From Rhodanobacter sp. (GTDB lineage: Bacteria > Pseudomonadota > Gammaproteobacteria > Xanthomonadales > Rhodanobacteraceae): a stretch of DNA of 64,000 nucleotides. How positions within the stretch are numbered: position 1 is the stretch's first letter; every line of letters starts with the position of its first letter. Under the pieces are notes generated by a model. The model saw nothing but the letters and a program-made list of their open reading frames with translations. It was not told where the DNA came from and did no database searches. Location of the stretch: positions 1,299,562-1,363,561 of the forward strand of contig AP031382.1 in NCBI GenBank assembly GCA_040371205.1, written 5' to 3'. Shown here one piece after another: positions 31,290-43,240 of the stretch. A program made the translations under genes and the position numbers.

Positions 31290-32960
31290 ATGAACGCCCC
31301 CACCCGCATCGACACCACCCGCACCGTCCGCGCGCCGCGCGGCACGGAACTCTCCTGCAAGAGCTGGCTCACCGAGGCGCCGTTCCGCATGCTGCAGAAC
31401 AACCTCGACCCCGAGGTGGCGGAGAACCCGGCGGAGCTGGTGGTGTACGGCGGCATCGGCCGCGCCGCGCGCAACTGGGAGTGCTTCGACGCCATCCTGC
31501 GCAGCCTGCGTGAACTCAACGACGACGAGACCCTGCTGGTGCAGTCCGGCAAGCCGGTGGGCGTGTTCCCCACCCACAAGGACGCGCCGCGCGTGCTGAT
31601 CGCCAACTCCAACCTGGTGCCGCACTGGGCCACCTGGGAGCACTTCAACGAGCTCGATAAGAAGGGCTTGATGATGTACGGCCAGATGACGGCCGGCAGC
31701 TGGATCTACATCGGCTCGCAGGGCATCGTGCAGGGCACCTACGAAACCTTCGTGGAGATGGGCCGCCAGAGCTACGGCGGCAGCCTCAAGGGCAAGTGGA
31801 TACTCACCGCCGGCCTCGGCGGCATGGGCGGCGCGCAGCCGCTGGCCGCCAGCCTGGCCAGCGCGTGCAGCCTCACCATCGAGTGCCAGCAGAGCCGCAT
31901 CGACTTCCGCCTCAAGACCCGCTACGTGGACGAGCAGGCCAGCGACCTCGACGACGCGCTGGCGCGCATCAAGAAATACACCGAGGCCGGCGAGGCGAAA
32001 TCCATCGCCTTGCTCGGCAACGCCGCCGACGTGCTGCCCGAACTCGTGCGCCGCGGCGTGAAGCCCGACGCCGTCACCGACCAGACCAGCGCGCACGACC
32101 CGGTCAACGGCTACCTGCCCAGCGGCTGGACCGTGGAGCAGTGGTTCGAGCGCCGCAAGAGCGACCCCAACGGCACCCGCGACGCCGCCAAGAAATCCAT
32201 GAAGCAGCACGTGGAAGCCATGCTCGCCTTCCACGCACAGGGCATTCCCACCTTCGACTACGGCAACAACATCCGCCAGATGGCCAAGGACGAAGGCTGC
32301 GCCAACGCCTTCGCCTTCCCCGGCTTCGTGCCCGCCTACGTGCGCCCGCTGTTCTGCCGCGGCGTCGGCCCGTTCCGCTGGGTGGCGCTCAGCGGCGACC
32401 CGGAGGACATCTACAAGACCGACCAGAAGGTGAAGGAGCTGATCCCCGACGACGCCCACCTGCACAACTGGCTGGACATGGCCAAGAGCCGCATCAACTT
32501 CCAGGGCCTGCCTGCGCGCATCTGCTGGGTGGGGCTGGGGCAGCGCCACAAGCTGGGGCTGGCGTTCAACGAGATGGTGCGCAACGGCGAGCTGAAGGCG
32601 CCGGTGGTGATCGGGCGCGATCACCTGGATTCGGGGTCGGTGGCGTCACCGAATCGGGAGACCGAGGCGATGAAGGACGGCTCGGATGCGGTGTCGGATT
32701 GGCCGTTGCTCAATGCGATGTTGAATGTGGCCGGTGGGGCGACGTGGGTGTCGCTGCATCATGGGGGTGGGGTGGGGATGGGGTATTCGCAGCATTCGGG
32801 GGTGGTGATTGTTTGCGATGGGTCCGAGGAGGCGGACAAGCGGATTGGGCGGGTGCTTTGGAATGATCCGGGGACCGGGGTTATGCGGCATGCGGATGCG
32901 GGGTATGAGGTGGCTGTTGAGTGTGCCAAAGAGCAGGGGTTGAAGTTGCCGATGGTTTGA
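31290..32960 (+). CDS. hutU: urocanate hydratase
   Basis: A 556-residue NAD-dependent lyase converting urocanate to imidazolonepropionate in histidine breakdown. Hallmarks are the NAD site [29 protein letters not shown] near the start, the catalytic Cys region [15 protein letters not shown], and [15 protein letters not shown] near the end. No hutH, hutI, hutG or hutC is nearby. Base and codon use changes visibly in the last 350 bp: C-ending codons give way to G- and T-ending ones, although the frame stays intact. The gene borders the AT-rich NACHT island. Confidence 0.96.
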
Positions 32961-33048
32961 TGAGTTCGAATAGAAGAGCGTAAGTCCTCCTTCTTTCGGT
33001 TGCTAAACCGGTTGTGTTCTTTTCAAAGAATTTGCATAGGAAAAGCAT

Positions 33049-35031
33049 ATGCCAATCTTGGAGACGGCTGCTGCGATTGCAGGGGCGGGCGGCGAAGCCG
33101 CCTCGAAAGTTGTCGTAAAGGCGACTGCGACAAAGCTTGCCAGAGAATTCAATGACCGAGTTATAGGTCCATTTTTCGAAAAAAGAAGAGCTCAGGCGGC
33201 TTTGATTGATGGCGTCAGGCGCTACATGAGGAGCTGCGAAAAGAAGACGCGTTATGTTCCCACGATTGCAATTCAAGGGTCAAAGTTCCTACTGGATGAA
33301 GTATATGAGCCATTAGTTCTTATCAGAACTGAAGATCGACAGGAGTTTGAAGTCTCCGGATTTCCGCATGAAGTTTTTAATGCAAATACATGTGTCTTGG
33401 TAACTGATTCCGCTGGCATGGGAAAATCAACACTTTCCAAGTTTCTTCTGCGGCGTTGTTTAGATGAGTTATCTCGCATCCCTGTTCTGATTGAACTCAG
33501 GAGGGTCAAAGAGGGGCAGACAGTTGAGTCCTTTATATGCGACGAAATGGTTGGTGCGAATGGAACGGAAGGCTGTCGTAGGAAATTAATGGAATCCTTT
33601 TCTAAGGGTGGATTCATTTTTATTTTGGACGGCTATGATGAAATAGACGAGAGCATACGACAAAGTGTGAGTTTGGATGTCTTTCGAATGTCGAGAGAAT
33701 ACGCTGATTGTGCATTTTGGCTTACGTCAAGACCAGATTCTGGTCTTGCTAGTTTTACTGGTTTTCTTGAATATAAGATCAAGCCACTCTGCTTGGATCA
33801 GGCGCACTCACTTCTACGGCGTTATGATTCTGGAAGAGGTAAAGCTGAACCCTTGATTGCAAAGATGAAAGGGTTGACCCAGATTGAAGGTTTTTTAGGA
33901 AACCCTCTACTGGTTACGCTTCTTTACAAGGCATACGATTACAAGGCTACCGTCCCGCTAAAGCGAAATATTTTCTTTCGGCAGGTATACGATGCTTTGT
34001 ATCAAGATCACGACCTTAGCAAAGAAGGGGCATTCGAGAGGCGAAAAAAATCATCGCTAGACAGTGACGATTTTCATAAGGCTCTAAGGGCTCTTGGTAT
34101 CGTTACGTTTAAGAATGGAAAAGTTCAGTATGGAGTGGAGGAATTTGCAGGATTGCTCACTGAGGCGGCTGGTCTAATTAGTCCCATAAGGCTTGAAGTT
34201 GGCAAGTGGAAATCCGATTTGCTATCTGCTGTGCCGATCTTTATGAAAGATGGGCATGATATTCGGTGGTCTCATAAGGCATTTCAGGATTACTTTGCAG
34301 CACAGTTTGCTTTCTTTGATATGGGTGTTCGGTGCGAAGAGTTCGTTAGAAGACTTCTTTCTGATGATAATCCATTGAAGAATGAAAATGTCCTGACGAT
34401 GCTCGCCGAATTGGATATCGAGGTTCTTCGATCTGGATTTGTGAGGTCTTATGCCGCCGAACTCGTCGCGCGCGCCGAAAAGCTTGGTATGGCCGGAAAT
34501 GAGCTGGATTTTGCAACATTTTCTGCTAGAGAGTGCGGTGAGTTTTTTATACTTACCACCGATTATCCAGAGGAAAAAATGCTTTCGGGGTTCGAGAAGT
34601 TTCCCGATTTTCTGTCCCTTGCGCGCGAGCGGCTAGGGCGCGAAATAGCGTTTAAGCAGGCTACCCTTACTCGCTTCGAAAAAAATGCCATTTTGGGTGT
34701 TTTTAGTGATGCCTTCTTTCCTCGCCATCAGCTTATTGCAAGACTTGACCAAAGGGCGTTCATGCGTCCTGATTTTTTCGGTAAATTTGACAGGAAAAAG
34801 GATCTTGATGTTATTGAGGGATTGGCGAGTGATGGCTGGTTTAGTGTCAACGATGCTCTGTTGGCTGTGCGGGATGATTCCGACAAGGAGTCCTTGTTGA
34901 GGATGGTCGGGCGATGCATTCACTGGGGGATTCCTTCGCTGGTTTCCGTTAGGTCGATTCTTGGTGATGATCAGGGGAAAAAGCGGGCCGCAAATATCGA
35001 CGACTTGTTAAGCGGGTTAGGAGCTAATTAA
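33049..35031 (+). CDS. NACHT-domain STAND NTPase, candidate anti-phage protein
   Basis: A 660-residue protein whose gene is much more AT-rich than any neighbour, indicating transfer. Residues 1-95 are an N-terminal helical region. The NACHT core has a P-loop DSAGMGKST (120-128; the first Gly of the loop is Asp), Walker B FIFILDGYDEID (190-200), sensor WLTSRPD (224-230), GNPLLVTLL (284-292) and the winged-helix signature SHKAFQDYFAA (408-418). Residues 430-660 are helical with no recognised sensor repeats. Bacterial NACHT proteins (bNACHT, Avs-type) are known to stop phage infection; this role is inferred. AGGA precedes the ATG. The stop codon lies inside a 22-bp repeat tied to a transposase remnant. 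Confidence 0.85.
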   Translation: MPILETAAAIAGAGGEAASKVVVKATATKLAREFNDRVIGPFFEKRRAQAALIDGVRRYMRSCEKKTRYVPTIAIQGSKFLLDEVYEPLVLIRTEDRQEFEVSGFPHEVFNANTCVLVTDSAGMGKSTLSKFLLRRCLDELSRIPVLIELRRVKEGQTVESFICDEMVGANGTEGCRRKLMESFSKGGFIFILDGYDEIDESIRQSVSLDVFRMSREYADCAFWLTSRPDSGLASFTGFLEYKIKPLCLDQAHSLLRRYDSGRGKAEPLIAKMKGLTQIEGFLGNPLLVTLLYKAYDYKATVPLKRNIFFRQVYDALYQDHDLSKEGAFERRKKSSLDSDDFHKALRALGIVTFKNGKVQYGVEEFAGLLTEAAGLISPIRLEVGKWKSDLLSAVPIFMKDGHDIRWSHKAFQDYFAAQFAFFDMGVRCEEFVRRLLSDDNPLKNENVLTMLAELDIEVLRSGFVRSYAAELVARAEKLGMAGNELDFATFSARECGEFFILTTDYPEEKMLSGFEKFPDFLSLARERLGREIAFKQATLTRFEKNAILGVFSDAFFPRHQLIARLDQRAFMRPDFFGKFDRKKDLDVIEGLASDGWFSVNDALLAVRDDSDKESLLRMVGRCIHWGIPSLVSVRSILGDDQGKKRAANIDDLLSGLGAN

Positions 35032-35051
35032 AGGGGACGTGGCTAATTAAA
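35030..35051. repeat. 22-bp direct repeat, copy 1 (transposase end)
   Basis: The 22-bp sequence starting AAAGGGGACG and ending GGCTAATTAAA is identical to 36071-36092. In both places it sits just beyond the 3' end of a decayed REP-type transposase reading frame on the minus strand. The NACHT stop codon (35029-35031) overlaps its first two bases. GCTAATTAAA also occurs just before it at 35023-35032. Confidence 0.85.
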
Positions 35052-35052
35052 C

Positions 35053-35430
35053 CGACCCGCGTAGGCTGGCTTGGCGGGGCCGTCCGCGGGGCCGGCAGGC
35101 GGCAGGGTGTCCAAGCGTGGTTTCCACCATGTGCTGGAAGCGCTCATCGCCAAGGGCGCGTTCCTGGTCGGCGTACTTGCGCAGGCGCTGCAGGTCGTCG
35201 GGCGCGATGCCTGCATCCAGCCATTGTCGGTAGGCATGGGCGCGCTCGTTTGGGTTGCTTCCCATCGCGAGGTAGAGCGGGTGGGGCGTGATGAGCGGAT
35301 CGCGGGCGCGGGCCAGATGCGTGTGCACACTGGACCATCGATAGTCCTGCGGTGCCTCGACCATGGCGGCGGCGCACCGGATTGAGCTCGATATGGCGCA
35401 TGACGGTCAGCACGCAGTGAGGTCGTCCCT
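35053..35430 (-). pseudogene. REP-associated (Y1) transposase, C-terminal remnant
   Basis: Minus-strand frames together give the C-terminal part of an IS200-like/RAYT transposase: LTVMRHIELNPVR in one frame, then MVEAPQDYRWSSVHTHL and later DPLITPHPLYLAMG and RFQHMVETTLGHP in another. A one-base frame change separates NPVR from the MVEAP segment, and the catalytic N-terminal HUH/Tyr region is absent. It is therefore a dead fragment between the NACHT gene and the toxin-antitoxin module. Family assignment rests on the IELNPVR and YRWSS signatures. Confidence 0.8.
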
Positions 35431-35479
35431 GAGCGGGTCATGCCTGCGGCCCGTGCTTGAACGAGGGCTTTTCGTATGC

Positions 35480-35511
35480 CATATTCGGCTCTAAATCTGG
35501 AGCCAAATATG
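35480..35511 (+). promoter_or_regulatory. operator-like inverted repeat of the TA module
   Basis: CATATTCGGCTC (35480-35491) and GAGCCAAATATG (35500-35511) are reverse complements at 11 of 12 positions around an 8-bp spacer. The right arm includes the antitoxin ribosome site (GGAG, 35499-35502) and start codon. Such palindromes are the usual binding sites of antitoxin or toxin-antitoxin complexes; autoregulation is inferred. Confidence 0.65.
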
Positions 35512-35754
35512 GAAGCCATACTCGCCGGTGCGAGCATCAGCATCACTGAACTCAAGCGCAATCCCAGTGCCGTGATCGAGGCGGCCGATGGCGAGTCGGT
35601 GGCCGTGCTGGTGCACAACAAACCCAGCGCCTATCTGGTACCCGCAGCCACCTACAAGCGCCTGCTGGACAGGCTGGAGGATCTCGAGCTGGCCGAACTG
35701 GTGCGTTCACGTGCCAAGGAGCGCCGTGTGAAGGTCAAGCTCGATGACCTATAG
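35509..35754 (+). CDS. Phd/YefM-type antitoxin
   Basis: An 81-residue antitoxin. The N-terminal half is the DNA-binding domain of the Phd/RelB type (ASISITELKRNPSAVIEAADGESVAVLVHNKPSAYLVP, quoted here only as its start ASISITELKRNPS), and the C-terminal part (LLDRLEDLELAELVRSRAKE) would wrap and block the toxin. The ATG at 35509 has GGAG six bases upstream; an in-frame ATG at 35476 lies before the operator palindrome and is less likely. It overlaps the toxin gene by 11 bp. The module lies between two transposase remnants. Confidence 0.9.
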   Translation: MEAILAGASISITELKRNPSAVIEAADGESVAVLVHNKPSAYLVPAATYKRLLDRLEDLELAELVRSRAKERRVKVKLDDL

Positions 35755-36028
35755 CCTGGAGTTTGTCGAGTCCGCGCTGAAGGAATGGCGCAAGCTGCCG
35801 CCCGGCATCCGCGAGCAGATGAAGCACAAGCTCGCCGAACGGCTGCAGCATCCACATGTTCCCTCGGCACGCCTGCATGGCTTGCCTGACTGCTACAAGA
35901 TCAAGCTGCGCACGGTTGGCTACCGGCTTGTCTACCGGGTTGACGACAAGGTGGTGGTAGTGACCGTGATTGCGGTCGGCAAGCGCGACAAGGGGTTGGT
36001 CTACCTTGCGGCGAAGAAACGCAGCTGA
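35744..36028 (+). CDS. RelE/ParE-family toxin
   Basis: A 94-residue toxin of the RelE type that would cut mRNA on the ribosome. Matching features are YSLEFVESALKEWRKLP at the start, QHPHVPSARLHGLPDCYKIKLR, and the C-terminal GYRLVYRVDDKVVVVTVIAVGKRDK with the conserved Arg, Lys and Tyr residues of active RelE members. It is translationally coupled to the antitoxin. GC content is like the host, unlike the adjacent NACHT gene. Confidence 0.92.
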   Translation: MTYSLEFVESALKEWRKLPPGIREQMKHKLAERLQHPHVPSARLHGLPDCYKIKLRTVGYRLVYRVDDKVVVVTVIAVGKRDKGLVYLAAKKRS

Positions 36029-36070
36029 GAGAAAACGTGCAAGAGACAGTGTCGGGACAGTCACCGAAAT

Positions 36071-36092
36071 AAAGGGGACGTGGCTAATTAAA
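36071..36092. repeat. 22-bp direct repeat, copy 2 (transposase end)
   Basis: Identical to 35030-35051, about 1,040 bp away in the same orientation, and again followed by a minus-strand transposase C-terminal remnant. The pair brackets the first remnant and the toxin-antitoxin module. Confidence 0.85.
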
Positions 36093-36290
36093 TCGACTCG
36101 CGCAGGCTGGCTTGCCGGCGCCGCCCGCGGGCGCGGCAGGCGGCAGGGCGTCCGAGCGTGGTTTCCAGCATGCGCTGGAAGCGGTCATCGCCAGGGGCGC
36201 GATCGCTTGGATGCCTTCCATCACGGGGTAGAGCGGGTTGGGTGCGATGAGTGGATCACAAACGAGGCCAGGTTCACGTAGCTCGTGCGA
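36093..36290 (-). pseudogene. second REP-type transposase C-terminal remnant
   Basis: Minus-strand translation gives DPLIAPNPLYPVM, matching DPLITPHPLYLAMG of the first remnant. After an internal deletion and frame change it gives DDRFQRMLETTLGRPAACRARG, matching the ERFQHMVETTLGHPAACRPRG end. Only about 60 codons survive. The homologous tails and shared 22-bp repeat show that both fragments came from related elements. Confidence 0.75.
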
Positions 36291-36380
36291 CTGACCGAAA
36301 CCGGTGGCGGGTTCGGCTTTCCAGCGAGCGACGAGCGTTTCCAGGCCGCGACGCAAAGCTGGGCATGGGGAGGAGGGTCG

Positions 36381-37328
36381 ATGACGAGGATTCTTGCGCT
36401 TCGTAGGGGCGGGCAACGCGCCGGGTTGAGCTGGCGGTTGGCCATGTGTGTGGCGAGCGTTCTCGTCGGGCTGGTGCTTGCCCCGGGGGTGATCCAGGCG
36501 GCGGATGTGCCGTCGGCGTCCTCCGATGTCCTGCACTTTGACGACGCCCGCCTTTTTCATCCCGCCAAGCGGCTGCCACCCGGCGTGTGGGCCGATGCGG
36601 CGAAGGACGATTCGCGCCAGGCGGTGTTGCTGACCGCATCCGACGGCGTGGCCCTGCGCGGGTGGTTCTATCCCTCGCCGGTGGCCGGCGCCCCCTTCGT
36701 GGTTACCTTCCACGGCAACAACGAGACCATCGGTGACGCCTGGACGCAGGCCCGTGACGGGTTTCTTTACGCCCAGCTCAACTTGAATCTGCTCACCTTC
36801 GACTACCGCGGCACCGGTTTCAGCAGCGGCGCCATTTCGCTGGCGAAGGCGCGCGCGGATGCGCTGGCCATCTACGACCTGGCGACGAAGAAAGCAGCGG
36901 GGCGGCCGGTGTACGTGGTGGGCTGGTCGCTGGGTTCGGTATTCGCTAGCCACGTGGCGGCCAGCCGGCCCGCGGTGGCGGGTCTGGTGTTGCTCGATCC
37001 GTTGGCCTCGGTCGATGCGCTGGCCACCGACGTCGCCCGAGCGCTGCACCGGCCGGTGAAGGTTGCGGCCAGCGTGAAGGACGGCATCCGCAACACGCGT
37101 GATTTGCAGCACTTTCATGGGCCGCTGCTGGTGGTGCACGGCACGGCGGACGAGGTCATTCCCATCGCGGAGGGGCGCGCTGATTTCGCCGCGGCTGCCT
37201 CGGCCGACAAGACCTTCGTGCCCGTCGCCGGCAAGGGCCACGTCGCCGCGATCTGGTCGGTGCAGGCAGACAACGCGATGGCGGCGTTCTTTGCCCGCCA
37301 CGCGCCGGTCGAGACGAAAGGGAAGTAA
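36381..37328 (+). CDS. exported alpha/beta hydrolase
   Basis: A 315-residue hydrolase with a signal peptide or N-terminal anchor (about residues 18-41, cut near IQAAD). Catalytic signatures are the oxyanion segment FVVTFHGNNE, the nucleophile elbow GWSLGSVFAS (GxSxG), the acid in VVHGTADEVIP and the His in GKGHVAAIW. The overall layout resembles BEM46/ABHD13-like serine hydrolases. The ATG at 36381 has GGAGGAGGG directly upstream. The substrate is unknown. It follows the island remnants but has host-like composition. Confidence 0.87.
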   Translation: MTRILALRRGGQRAGLSWRLAMCVASVLVGLVLAPGVIQAADVPSASSDVLHFDDARLFHPAKRLPPGVWADAAKDDSRQAVLLTASDGVALRGWFYPSPVAGAPFVVTFHGNNETIGDAWTQARDGFLYAQLNLNLLTFDYRGTGFSSGAISLAKARADALAIYDLATKKAAGRPVYVVGWSLGSVFASHVAASRPAVAGLVLLDPLASVDALATDVARALHRPVKVAASVKDGIRNTRDLQHFHGPLLVVHGTADEVIPIAEGRADFAAAASADKTFVPVAGKGHVAAIWSVQADNAMAAFFARHAPVETKGK

Positions 37329-38161: not shown

Positions 38162-39427
38162 TCAGTACGTCAGCTGCACTTCGAACTGGAAGACCAGCGC
38201 ATTGGCCACGTCGGGGCGGGTATCCGGATGCATCACGTACTGCAGATCGGGTTGCAGGGTCAGGTGCGCGCCGACCGTATGCTGGTAGGTCAATTCGTAG
38301 ATGCGTTCGGAGGCCGCGACCGGCAGGCCCTGGGCCTGCTGCGTGCGCAGGTAGGGGCGGCCGTTGTGGACGGTGGCGACGGCCAGGCCCAGCGCATCGT
38401 CGGCGCCGGTGTCGAACAGCGGCGACAGCGACATGCCCACGCCCGTGTAACGGCGGAAGCGGTTTGCGCCGGGACTCGCAACGCTGAGCTGGGCGAAGCC
38501 CGCCAGCCGCCGGCCGGCACTGTCGATGCGCACCAGCGCCGGATCGTCGAGCAGCAGGTAGGCGCCGCTGGCGGCGCAGGCGCGCGCCGTCGCATCGGGC
38601 GCAAGGCAGGCCTCGGGGCGGGCGTAATGCCACACGCCCAGCGCCAGCTTGCCGGTGTACGGCGGCTGCCGCGCCAGGCGCCCGATCATGTCGCCGTTCC
38701 AGTCGTCGTTGTCCGCGTCTGCGGCGGGCGCGCGACGCAACAGCGCGAGTTCGCTGACCAGCAATGCGTCGCCGACACGGCTGTGCTGCTCGCCGGGCGG
38801 CAGGCCGGGGTCGTTCGGCACGCCGCCCTGCAGGACCGCGGTGCGCCACACCACGTTCCGCGAAGGCTTCAGCGCGACGCGCAGGGCAAAGCGTGGACGG
38901 GGGAAGATCGACGGCCCCTGGCCGCCGCTTTGCGAGAACGCCGGCTCCACGCCGAACGAGCTGTCCAGGAACAACGTGGCGGTCTGCAGGCGGTCGAATT
39001 CGCTGTTGAGATCGTAGCGGCCCAGCAGCACCGACCAGTGCGAGCGCCGGCCGTTGTACTGCATCCAGGCTTCGTAGAGACGGGTAAGGTGCGGCGCGGC
39101 GATGTTGCTGACGCCCTGGGCGTCGCCGGTGTAGTCGCCAGGAAAGCCGCCGCCGCTGTTCAGCACCTGGGCAAACGCGCTGAAGCCCTGGCCGTTGTCA
39201 CCCACCGCGCCGCGATAGCGCAGCGAACCGTAGAGGTTCCACGCGCCGGTGGTGCCCCGCCGTTGCCCGCCGTGCAGGTTATCGTACAGGTTGGCGAGCA
39301 GGCCCACGGCGGGTTTCAGGGCAGAAGTGTCGGTGTCCGCGGCGCTGGCATGCCAGGGGACCAGCGCGAGCAGCGCGGCGAGCGCACAAGCAGCAAGGCT
39401 TGGCTGGAAGCGGTTTCGGATCGGCAT
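38162..39427 (-). CDS. OprB-family carbohydrate-selective porin
   Basis: A 421-residue outer-membrane protein with a signal peptide (residues 1-29, ending WHASA). Typical OprB features are GLLANLYDNLHGG, TRLYEAWMQYN, LLGRYDLNSEFDR, the conserved TATLFLDSSFG and GPSIFPRPRFALRV, and a C-terminal beta-strand ending in Tyr (VFQFEVQLTY) for outer-membrane insertion. It would let small sugars diffuse into the periplasm. The start at 39427 has no clear ribosome site but gives a proper signal peptide. Uptake substrate unknown. Confidence 0.9.
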   Translation of the reverse strand: MPIRNRFQPSLAACALAALLALVPWHASAADTDTSALKPAVGLLANLYDNLHGGQRRGTTGAWNLYGSLRYRGAVGDNGQGFSAFAQVLNSGGGFPGDYTGDAQGVSNIAAPHLTRLYEAWMQYNGRRSHWSVLLGRYDLNSEFDRLQTATLFLDSSFGVEPAFSQSGGQGPSIFPRPRFALRVALKPSRNVVWRTAVLQGGVPNDPGLPPGEQHSRVGDALLVSELALLRRAPAADADNDDWNGDMIGRLARQPPYTGKLALGVWHYARPEACLAPDATARACAASGAYLLLDDPALVRIDSAGRRLAGFAQLSVASPGANRFRRYTGVGMSLSPLFDTGADDALGLAVATVHNGRPYLRTQQAQGLPVAASERIYELTYQHTVGAHLTLQPDLQYVMHPDTRPDVANALVFQFEVQLTY

Positions 39428-40243: not shown

Positions 40244-40894
40244 AAGGAGCATGGAAGCGGATAGGACTCTCGACTATCCGATGTAGCTGCAGATTTGCCG
40301 CGAGCAAAAACCGGGTCGCGGTCGCTCGATTCGCGCGGCAGGCCAAGGTGCGGCCCAGTCCACACCGCCCACCCGCCAATCGAGCGGAGGCATCGAGGCC
40401 AGCCTCTCCGCACGCATGACTTTGGCATCCGCCTTATCGCTGTCTCCGGCCTCAGCCAACGGCCATCAGTGACGCGACCTGGCCGTGGTGGCCGCTTGCC
40501 ATCACCCGAGTCGGTTTCGTATGCCTTGAGGCTTTCGAGGACGATCCGCATCACTGCCTGCCGGCAGCATGCGCCTTCGATATCTTCCCGCGGATGCTCT
40601 CTAGCCATCGACCGCTTCGCTATCGATGGGAGGATGCGTTGGCATGGTGGTCGACCAAGATCGGTTGTGCGATCACGTTCGATCAGCGTACGCACGGGAG
40701 GTCGTGTCACTCATCCCATGATCGAACCGTACCCTGCCTCTGTTCGATTGGAGGGCGGTGACCGGATTGGCCGCGTTTCCGCGCATTGATCCACGGAGGG
40801 CTTCGACAATCTTGCGCTTTCGCCAGGCTGGATGTCGGCCGGGGGGCGAAGCCCGCCCGGAAGGACGAACCGCGAACATAAGGAACGATCCGCC
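40244..40894. other. 650-bp gap without a convincing gene
   Basis: A minus-strand frame (40108-40710) includes MRIVLESLKAYETDSGDGK, and another (40274-40459) includes LDWRVGGVDWAAPWPAAR. Both look partly protein-like, but each overlaps the other frame and the start of one lies antisense to the preceding gene. A decayed or frameshifted gene is possible; no intact one is supported. Confidence 0.3.
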
Positions 40895-41371
40895 ATGAAA
40901 CAGATCCAGACGCGTTCCAAGACTGGCGTGATGCAATTCAAGAACCGCGCCCGCAACGACTGGCTCAAGCGCAAAGGCATCGAGCGCGAAAATATCCAAT
41001 TGGGCAAAAGGGTGCGGAAGAAGACCCGGTTCTACACGCCCGGCGAAATCCAGCCCTACATCGAGATGTTCGCCATCGCCGGCCAACAGCGGCCTGGCCT
41101 CAATCCGGGAACCCACTACCGGCACGCGGTGCGTATCGCCTATACCGGCGGTCGGGCGGGCGACTTTGCGCTGGCCAATGCCATGGCCGGCTACAACCAG
41201 ACGCCGGCTGGCTACGTCTGGCACCACTTCCACGACTGGACACCGCCGGTGGTGAACGGTGGCAACGGCTACGGCATGCTGTATCTCATGACGGTGGCCG
41301 AACATGCCATTTATCACTGTGGCGGAGTGCTGCAGGCGGAAACCCATCTGGGCACTCCCTATCGGCCGTGA
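40895..41371 (+). CDS. WHH-type HNH nuclease domain protein
   Basis: A 158-residue basic protein whose C-terminal half carries the WHH motif of the HNH/Endo VII superfamily: TPAGYVWHHFHDW, then GMLYLMTVAEHAIYHCGGV. The Trp-His-His and following His residues would bind metal. The N-terminus is rich in Lys and Arg (SKTGVMQFKNRARNDWLKRK). In polymorphic toxins this domain is a DNase; here it is free-standing without a signal peptide or delivery domain. An immunity gene is not evident. AAGGA lies about ten bases before the ATG. The flanking 228 bp to the next gene hold nothing clear. Confidence 0.8.
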   Translation: MKQIQTRSKTGVMQFKNRARNDWLKRKGIERENIQLGKRVRKKTRFYTPGEIQPYIEMFAIAGQQRPGLNPGTHYRHAVRIAYTGGRAGDFALANAMAGYNQTPAGYVWHHFHDWTPPVVNGGNGYGMLYLMTVAEHAIYHCGGVLQAETHLGTPYRP

Positions 41372-41599: not shown

Positions 41600-43240
41600 T
41601 CAGGTCGTGTCTCCATTTTCCGCAAAAACGCACACGCCCAACGCCTGGCTCTTGGCCCGGTACATGGCGGCATCGGCGGCGCGCAGGTAATCGTCGGTGG
41701 TCGCGAAATCCGTCCGGCTGCAGACCACGCCGATGCTGGCGCCGCAGGTCACGGTATGCGGGCCGATCCGGTAGGGCGCCGCGAGGGCGGTCGCCATCTG
41801 CCGGGCCCGGTCGGCGGCGCCGGCCTGGTCGATGGATTCCAGCAGCACGTTGAACTCGTCGCCGCTCATGCGGGCAACCAGATCCATGGCGCGCACGCAG
41901 GATTCAAGCCGGCGTGCCACCTGCTGCAAGAGTTGGTCGCCCGCGTGGTGTCCAAGCGTGTCATTGACGGCCTTGAACCGGTCGAGATCCAGCAGCAGCA
42001 CGGCGAACTGGGTGGTGTCCTCTTGTGACGGTGCGTCACCGCCTTTCGCGGCGGCGTCCAGATGCAGCGCAATGGCGTACTCGAGACGGTCGCGGAACAG
42101 CGGCCGGCCGGGCAGGTTGGTCAAGGCGTCGTAGGAGCTGCCGCGTTCCGCCAGGTCGCTCAGCGACCCGGCCATGCGCACGGCGGCACCGCCCTCGAAC
42201 TGCGCGACTCCGCGCCAGTTGAGCCACACCGACCGCCCCGATCCGTGGCGCGCGCGAAAGTCCACGGAAAAGTTCGGGTGCAGGCCCGATAGGTGCCTGC
42301 GGTAGGCCGTCTCCACGCGCTGATGGTCGTCGGGATCGATGAGTCGTTGCAGGAACCGCCAGCCGTTTTCATGCAGGCGGCCGGTGTGTCCCAGCCCGAC
42401 CATTTCGTTGAAGCGCTGGGACACGTGCAGCACGTCCGTCTGCAGGTTCCAGTCCCAGATGCCGTCGTTGGATCCGCGGGTGGCAAGCGCATAGCGGATG
42501 TCGGACTGCACCAGTTCCAGTTCGGTATTTTTCTGCCGGGTCACGTCGATCATCAGGCCGATCATGCGGTTCGGGCGGCCGGGCTCGACATCCACGCGGC
42601 ACAGGTCGCGCACCCAGACGACCTCGCCGGACTTGGCGATCAGCCGATAGCTCATCTCGTAGGCATAGCTGTGCGTGGCGTAGTAGGCGGCATCGTCGAT
42701 GACCAGGGCTTCCGCCAGGTCGTCGGGATGCACGTGCGCCCGCCAGAAGCCCGGATCGGCGCGCCACTCCTCCACCGAGTAGCCGAACAGGCGCTCCACC
42801 TGCGGGCTGAGGAAGGTATTGCCCACGCCGAGTTCCGCCTCCCACACCACGCCGTCGATGGTTTCCAGCAGCCGGAGGAAGCGCTGGCGGTCCTCCATCA
42901 CGACCTGCTCGGTGATCCCGGTGATCTCGACCAGCACGCCCTGGCGACTCACCACCCGATCCGCGGCGTCGGTTTTCGGCTGCAACTGCAGGCGCATCCA
43001 GCGATGCTCCGCGTCGGCGAAGCGCAGCCGGAACACCGGCATGCCCGCGCGCAAGGCGCCCGTGTCGTCGGGGTGCACGAAGTCGAGCAAGGACTGGCCG
43101 AGCGCATCGTCCACCGGATGGCCCGTGAGCGTGTGCCAGGCGGGATTCAAGTAGGTGATGATCCACCGCGCGTCCGTTTGCACCACCGCGTCGGGCAGCA
43201 GTTGCAGCAGTTCTTCGGACGGCGTGAGTGGGGCGGGCAT
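41600..43240 (-). CDS. PAS-PAS-PAS-GGDEF protein
   Basis: A 546-residue cytoplasmic signalling protein. Three PAS modules lie at about residues 8-115, 120-240 and 245-370 (with PAC-type ends such as RQGVLVEITGITEQ and VRMAGSLSDLAERG), and a C-terminal GGDEF domain starts at DALTNLPGRPLFRDRL. The active-site loop reads ARMSGDEFNVLL, with Ser for the first Gly; SGDEF occurs in some active cyclases. An intact inhibitory I-site RAMD is placed five residues before it. It has no membrane segments, so a diffusible or redox/light signal is possible. AAGGA precedes the ATG. It is divergent from the AAA ATPase gene. Confidence 0.92.
   Translation of the reverse strand: MPAPLTPSEELLQLLPDAVVQTDARWIITYLNPAWHTLTGHPVDDALGQSLLDFVHPDDTGALRAGMPVFRLRFADAEHRWMRLQLQPKTDAADRVVSRQGVLVEITGITEQVVMEDRQRFLRLLETIDGVVWEAELGVGNTFLSPQVERLFGYSVEEWRADPGFWRAHVHPDDLAEALVIDDAAYYATHSYAYEMSYRLIAKSGEVVWVRDLCRVDVEPGRPNRMIGLMIDVTRQKNTELELVQSDIRYALATRGSNDGIWDWNLQTDVLHVSQRFNEMVGLGHTGRLHENGWRFLQRLIDPDDHQRVETAYRRHLSGLHPNFSVDFRARHGSGRSVWLNWRGVAQFEGGAAVRMAGSLSDLAERGSSYDALTNLPGRPLFRDRLEYAIALHLDAAAKGGDAPSQEDTTQFAVLLLDLDRFKAVNDTLGHHAGDQLLQQVARRLESCVRAMDLVARMSGDEFNVLLESIDQAGAADRARQMATALAAPYRIGPHTVTCGASIGVVCSRTDFATTDDYLRAADAAMYRAKSQALGVCVFAENGDTT

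Follow-up and report, generated by a model that had tools for sequence, protein, structure and literature searches.

The stretch of DNA analysed here, 64,000 nucleotides of Rhodanobacter sp. (contig AP031382.1 of assembly GCA_040371205.1, positions 1,299,562 to 1,363,561; hereafter the window), carries at its middle a gene for a NACHT protein. The open reading frame is intact, with an ATG start, 660 amino acids and 0 internal stops. Its GC (guanine plus cytosine) fraction of 0.457 stands against a window mean of 0.672 and a lowest 1-kb value of 0.589 elsewhere in the window (outside 32.5-35.5 kb), which confirms the single 660-residue AT-rich NACHT gene of the original prediction, a short note made from the sequence letters. 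The gene and its parts are given below; invariance refers to alignment A2, which holds 44 proteins (the window protein, the homologue L002 and 42 of 80 fetched viral relatives), and NTPase stands for nucleoside triphosphatase.

33049..35031, + strand: stand-alone NACHT STAND NTPase gene, 660 amino acids, GC 45.7% (open reading frame, Pfam, model, family profile)
33049..33198, + strand: residues 1-50, short helical N-terminus without a recognised effector domain (low-confidence model helices, Pfam)
33406..33432, + strand: residues 120-128 (DSAGMGKST), Walker A region, with G123, G125 and K126 invariant in 44/44 (A2 alignment)
33613..33645, + strand: residues 189-199, Walker B region, with D194, D197 and E198 invariant in 44/44 (A2 alignment)
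34270..34302, + strand: residues 408-418, SHKAFQDYFAA, with H409 invariant in 44/44 (A2 alignment, model, placement by profile on NLRC4)
34405..35028, + strand: residues 453-660, putative C-terminal sensor, similarity to relatives fading after about 480-520 (Pfam, C-terminal profile searches)

The Pfam NACHT model gave the window protein alone a sub-threshold score (24.8 bits against a cut-off of 26.7), and 43 of the 44 aligned family members matched NACHT at E <= 0.01. Besides the Walker residues and H409, R228, P286, H321, D322, L337, D390, G402, Y415 and F416 were invariant in 44/44. When the A2 family profile was compared with PDB, it matched NLRC4 (8.4e-9) and NLRP3; a direct phmmer search of PDB with the single window protein gave no match. 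The AlphaFold model (mean predicted local distance difference test score, pLDDT, of 72) was good over about residues 51-460, with a dip at 321-330, and the best PDB matches found by Foldseek were NLRC4, NOD2 and NLRP3, with 11-15% identity and, among the matches listed, template modelling scores to the query not above 0.51. The window protein belongs to the NACHT clade of STAND NTPases.

The stretch SHKAFQDYFAA, which had been proposed as a winged-helix motif, was placed by the family profile on HKSFQEYTAG of NLRC4, but was weak on its own (7.6 bits); in the model it comes after a beta hairpin and starts a helix. We take the histidine of the NLRC4 stretch to be H443, the NLR winged-helix histidine that presumably contacts ADP at rest; in the window protein, H409 would hold this position. 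At E <= 1, Pfam named no domain outside the NTPase region of the window protein: it listed none of the LRR, WD40 or TPR repeats, in agreement with the original prediction, and neither the N-terminal PD-(D/E)XK nuclease nor the NCH1 domain that are traits of bNACHT clade 6. The N-terminal helices of the model (residues 3-11 and 16-42) were of low confidence. NCBIfam gave no more than a partial match to EruA (E 0.0031; 15.7 bits, where the cut-off is 1000), which was rejected.

Two single-gene NACHT proteins found on plasmids resemble the window protein in their short N-terminus, NACHT module and lack of a recognised effector domain, namely WP_015632533.1 (L013:2872-4701), which is presumably bNACHT01, and WP_021519735.1 (L015:3860-5698; phmmer E = 4.4e-26 to the window protein in a small local set). 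They are 609-612 amino acids long, have an HKS(I/x)QEY motif and about 165 amino acids of C-terminus after the 453 cut, and differ from the window protein in their low identity to it (17-18%) and in a C-terminus without detected similarity. WP_021519735.1 is bNACHT12, which is reported to protect against DNA and RNA phages, and the same source places bNACHT02 and bNACHT12 in clade 14, with SNaCT domains and no discernible effector domains (PMC12169576). The anti-phage proteins bNACHT25 and bNACHT32 of clade 6 share the NACHT module as well, but have by the same account a PD-(D/E)XK nuclease N-terminus and an NCH1 C-terminus, neither of which was recognised in the window protein (PMC12169576). 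A Hymenobacter plasmid NACHT protein (L007:7824-9836) is like the window protein in length and domain order, with 28% overall identity, but its C-terminus is SNaCT5 (PF22711, 8.4e-40), a model that the window C-terminus does not match. The nearest relative found, L003 of the congener G009, is 42% identical over residues 12-567 and, like the window gene, AT-rich and directly 3' of a core metabolic gene, whereas its chromosomal site is another one and its C-terminus is 22% identical. The animal proteins NLRC4, NOD2 and NLRP3 share the NACHT module and the winged-helix region by profile and fold, and differ in that Pfam recognised no LRR and no CARD or PYD in the window protein.

In a tree of 58 homologues, the window protein grouped with L003 in a part that also holds the SNaCT5 protein L007, and bNACHT12 and WP_015632533.1 formed another subclade apart from it; the tree was midpoint-rooted with the other bNACHT clades left out, and support for the deeper placement of the window protein was 58. 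Judged by its sequence, the architecture is that of known anti-phage bNACHT proteins and no new kind of system, and the window protein appears to add a lineage to this known kind. The idea that this is a new anti-phage system whose sensor is undescribed was therefore not upheld, given the homology to bNACHT12 and the known architecture.

For the C-termini, we compared 57 segments cut at window residue 453. The window segment joined no cluster at 1e-6, and its sole single-sequence match below 0.01 was L003 (6e-5). With a profile of the window protein and L003 cut at 453, none of the other segments reached E <= 0.01 (the best had 0.013). In profile-profile comparison with 23 other clusters or single proteins, this profile stayed below 2% probability, the 100% for L003 being a self-match to a part of the query profile. 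When the same profile was cut at 430, it found 11 relatives at E <= 0.01 (best 2.1e-5) against 0 reversed controls, the matches covering mostly the first 50-90 profile positions. Searched alone, the C-terminus had no match in plasmids or phages, none in viral contigs (two peptide patterns only), and within the genus matched only G009 (E 0.06) and G004 (E 0.08, with a stop inside). Similarity to relatives thus seems to continue to about residue 480-520 and then to fade, and past that point the C-terminus appears to match one congener only (L003), weakly. Identity to L003 is 62% in residues 261-340 and 22-24% in the C-terminus, which changes fast, as a sensor might. We make no claim about its fold, because the model has a pLDDT below 50 over nearly all of residues 484-627.

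The proposed check against SNaCT profiles gave no match to the window protein at E <= 1. Within A2, SNaCT5 matched 15 of the 44 proteins, SNaCT13 six, SNaCT7 four, and SNaCT6, SNaCT8, SNaCT9 and SNaCT12 one each. Among 10 other homologues scanned singly, L007 and L012 passed a SNaCT cut-off and L002 fell narrowly below one over a short stretch, and seven, including bNACHT12 and WP_015632533.1, had no SNaCT match at E <= 1. The C-terminal profile of the latter two found no other segment at E <= 0.01 (best 0.014), like that of the window pair; the profile of a third pair found 3 segments. The failed matches do not argue a SNaCT domain away, because bNACHT12, described as a SNaCT protein (PMC12169576), fails likewise, and a new sensor class is not established, because the C-terminus of bNACHT12 is equally unrecognisable in the same tests. 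The unfamiliar C-terminus of the original prediction is real in that no relative beyond the weak L003 was found, but the C-terminus of bNACHT12 is recognised no better. We consider it probable that this C-terminus is a SNaCT domain diverged past sequence recognition, and the protein an ordinary SNaCT-type bNACHT. Its length and position are those of SNaCT domains, many A2 relatives match SNaCT models and the cut at 430 gathers relatives; the failed SNaCT models and the empty searches from residue 453 speak against it. Such a reading would refine the function proposed below.

Relatives of the protein were found on mobile elements. By tblastn, 160 plasmid records matched at E <= 1e-5, in none of which (0/160) a single place accounted for 80% of the query, and the homologous genes in the records opened encode 508 to about 695 amino acids. 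Two Vibrio phage records matched, and in the one opened the gene is noted as 'NLR_like_bNACHT01'. As a separate observation, a NACHT gene with SNaCT11 (L012:12520-14310; 3.7e-48) is the last but one of the annotated genes in a Vibrio phage record of 14.8 kb (Vinavirales). An alignment query of IMG/VR gave 112 relatives, of which 80 were kept; a single-sequence query by peptide patterns, which were too short, gave 1 relative in genome contigs and 0 in viral ones. We checked five contigs for terminase or integrase neighbours, and all of them (5/5) were positive: in L081 and L092 the gene that follows the NACHT gene encodes the terminase small subunit, in L080 the terminase large subunit gene lies two open reading frames after it (the intervening one unscanned), and an integrase gene adjoins it in L116 and lies two open reading frames on in L075. 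In the prophage-like contigs L080, L081 and L092, this position may be a slot for defence beside the packaging genes. In P4-like satellites, a previous study describes a hotspot of anti-phage genes beside int (PMC9122126).

The original prediction had named uniform core orthologues as what would speak against it; instead, the gene family is patchy among the sampled relatives. In the genus, 3 of 15 genomes matched at 1e-3, namely the genome of the window, G009 (42%) and G006 (25%, partial), the match in G006 being to a different NACHT protein. The family profile found the gene at 1e-20 in 2 of 197 sampled family-level genomes (a figure for which part of the first-look candidates were scored) and in 3 of 369 sampled class genomes, and at 1e-40 in 2 of 398 sampled phylum genomes, the own genome being included each time.

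The NACHT gene lies directly 3' of hutU, with 88 bp between the hutU end and its ATG, and the following features surround it.

31296..32960, + strand: hutU (urocanate hydratase), left border of the hotspot (Pfam Urocanase N, middle and C)
35026..35430, - strand: 3'-end fragment of a RAYT (Y1) transposase locus, including a direct-repeat copy at 35026-35163 (DNA similarity to G007)
35476..35754, + strand: Phd/YefM-type antitoxin (PF02604, E = 3.3e-12)
35744..36028, + strand: ParE-type toxin (PF05016, E = 3e-12)
36067..36257, no strand assigned: second RAYT-end repeat, 36067-36204 (88% to the first copy) plus 36209-36257 (82%) (repeat comparison)
36285..37328, + strand: alpha/beta hydrolase within the variable interval (PF12146, E = 1.1e-16)
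38162..39427, - strand: OprB-type porin within the variable interval, present too at one of the two G007 sites (PF04966, E = 3.5e-29)
41600..43240, - strand: PAS-GGDEF diguanylate cyclase gene, right border of the hotspot (Pfam, genus comparison)

Of the housekeeping genes and transposase remnants predicted around the gene, urocanate hydratase was identified upstream and the RAYT-end fragment downstream, but the fragment itself has no Pfam match; it was recognised because 35040-35417 is 93.7% identical to a stretch of G007 into which the edge of a RAYT (PF01797) match extends. The Phd/YefM-ParE pair is enclosed by the two direct RAYT-end repeats (138 nucleotides, 88% identical), of which the first overlaps the NACHT stop codon. 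The interval also holds a YCII gene (Pfam). A scan of 32800-35600 found no promoter, and 5 terminator-like sites against 3.8 expected. The hutU 3' end (32500-32999) shows a strong GC skew of +0.376 in G-rich sequence, and 40832-41368, adjoining the right border, has a weak WHH nuclease match (E 0.00037, below cut-off).

The hutU gene is present in 13 of the 15 genus genomes, in 14 copies that are 83-100% identical (own included). In the 13 other copies, from 12 other genomes, DNA homology to the window stops at 32954-32971, at most 11 bp from the stop codon, and beyond it every one of them has other sequence. For 7 of 14 sites (own included), the contig with hutU also carries the PAS-GGDEF right border, 2.9-13.9 kb away, the variable cargo lying between the convergent hutU and diguanylate cyclase genes. 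In 9 of 14 sites, the GC of the 2 kb after hutU was below 0.624, the lowest value among 103 background windows, which all come from our own window. Among the 13 other sites, five have restriction or SIR2 cargo (G004, G009, G010, G006, G013), two have PADLOC candidates (G003, G002), two have toxin-antitoxin genes only (G001, G005) and four show nothing clear next to hutU (G007a, G007b, G012, G014), as follows.

G004: Mrr (PADLOC mREase_IV, 3.5e-88)
G009: Mrr (Pfam)
G010: type I HsdR (PADLOC, 1.5e-88)
G006: MazE, MazF-like, HsdR and HsdM (Pfam)
G013: ParA with SIR2 (ThsA model, 6.8e-19)
G003: RlaP, then DUF3800, which is PDC-M04A (PADLOC, 5.4e-14)
G002: HATPase/STAS protein with a match to the 1750-residue DrmA profile over profile residues 104-393 (PADLOC)
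G001: RelE-like (Pfam, 18 bits against 27)
G005: pair resembling the MazEF pair of G006 (by eye only)
G012: IS3-like element (by eye); ParA, which matches PDC-M28B over 54 residues (9.6e-5)
G014: SWIM protein; toxin-antitoxin pair like that of the window about 3.9 kb after hutU (83% DNA identity)

The hutU 3' site is a chromosomal hotspot with differing foreign cargo, which includes defence genes in congeners, and the proposal of a stand-alone NACHT defence candidate agrees with this setting and with the foreign composition of the gene.

A second variable site was found around L003, which has a GC of 0.42 and starts about 40 bp after a B12-binding/MeaB/mutase gene on the same strand; we take the latter to be icmF. 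An icmF-type gene is present in 13 of the 15 genus genomes, and the sites 3' of it in these 13 (L155:9854-15538, L156, L176-L186) have a GC below 0.624 in the 2 kb examined in 10 of 13. Besides L003 in G009, they carry the following.

G006: different NACHT protein (7.4e-7)
G012: DRT5 reverse transcriptase (1.5e-204)
G013: PDC-M55A (3.7e-45) and PDC-M55B (4.6e-5) pair
G005: protein with DndB (3.8e-9) and DpdB (9.4e-18) matches
G010: 1146-amino-acid protein (L180:6105-9545) near nSTAND_NTPase5 (33.9 against 34 bits), no PADLOC match
G002: HD-CE/HATPase protein
Own genome: HigB-type toxin
G001, G003, G004: first proteins scanned, no match
G008, G014: no AT-rich cargo seen, the G014 contig ending after 2.1 kb

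Two AT-rich proteins at icmF sites had neither a Pfam nor a PADLOC match, namely L182:7193-9238 (681 amino acids) and L184:8671-9717 (348 amino acids); together with the 1146-amino-acid protein they are candidate defence genes. Our rates of defence cargo come from the hutU and icmF 3' sites only, with no control core-gene 3' ends. We found no published report of either hotspot in a literature search that was incomplete for subscription journals.

RAYT genes were frequent at both sites. PF01797 gave 13 matches in 8 of the 15 genus genomes, and six of them are no more than 10 kb downstream of hutU or icmF, in 0.5% of the sequence (binomial 2.8e-11, in a post hoc test that counts related copies as independent). 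A seventh stands beside the diguanylate cyclase gene, and six are elsewhere. The copies at the two sites or the right border are in G006:C3, G009:C7, G005:C33, G001:C27, G007:C162, G007:C294 and G008:C44, the last being the one beside the diguanylate cyclase gene. Judged by eye, the copy of G006 seems orthologous to that of G009, and the copy of G005 to that of G001, so that they do not count as independent. RAYTs may also have resided at such places for long instead of being movers.

Taken together, the gene most probably encodes a horizontally acquired stand-alone NACHT (STAND) NTPase acting as an ATP-switched anti-phage sentinel. The domain order, the invariant catalytic residues, the NLR fold match and the NACHT homology to the anti-phage bNACHT12 support this, and further support comes from the patchy distribution, from the relatives on plasmids, phage and prophage-like contigs, and from a site whose cargo is partly defensive. 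From the NLRs and the bNACHT proteins we infer sensing, switching and outcome, and with them phage defence, a trigger, a role for H409, oligomerisation and an abortive outcome. At rest, the NACHT-winged-helix module would keep the nucleotide closed in, with H409 at the position of the NLR winged-helix histidine. The variable C-terminus would sense a phage product or a phage-caused change, upon which nucleotide exchange would open the protein and allow oligomerisation through NACHT, and the gathered short helical N-termini would halt or kill the infected cell.

Several observations weigh against an anti-phage role. PADLOC gave the window protein no match at E <= 1, and its overall identity to bNACHT12 is about 18%. 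An amphipathic or membrane effector at the N-terminus was unsupported for the window protein (z 0.4 against its own shuffles); over 53 family proteins the mean z was 0.89, with 17% above 1.65, and a control stretch gave -0.01. Moreover, in a scan of 7 open reading frames of the window interval, with Pfam alone and no PADLOC run, nothing defensive apart from the toxin-antitoxin pair was named, four of the 13 other hutU sites (G007a, G007b, G012, G014) have no clear defence gene beside hutU, and the hotspots gather other foreign genes too. These sites, the porin, hydrolase and YCII genes of the interval, which have no defence link, and the fact that it is a single gene would also fit a neutral passenger or a non-immune STAND regulator brought by a recombining segment, with no role in phage defence. 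We regard this as unlikely, since the frame is intact with every A2-invariant residue (A2 including the window protein itself) and the sister gene L003 occupies a second such site in another species. An activity mainly against other mobile elements (plasmids, satellites) rather than phages is suggested by the relatives in the 160 plasmid records and in prophage-like contigs, but seems improbable, as bNACHT12, the homologue with tested function, protects against phages (PMC12169576). The most far-reaching combination, a fast-diversifying undescribed C-terminal phage sensor together with two genus-wide defence hotspots (3' of hutU and of icmF) into which this gene family is loaded and whose cargo turnover is driven by resident RAYT (Y1) transposases, is very doubtful, although transposase-assisted exchange of immune genes, if true, would be undescribed before.

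With the anti-phage sentinel as the preferred interpretation, the window protein and L003, which have a conserved NACHT core and strongly different C-termini, are a natural pair for sensor-swap tests. The RAYT association, if upheld in more genomes, raises the question of cargo exchange at such sites. Further, the two core-gene-anchored sites hold AT-rich genes without a family (681 amino acids in G001, 348 amino acids and its neighbours in G003, and 1146 amino acids in G010), which share their places with known defence genes of other species and are therefore testable candidates. In these bacteria, the two sites where the cargo changes, with the family-less genes found there, are most worth following.

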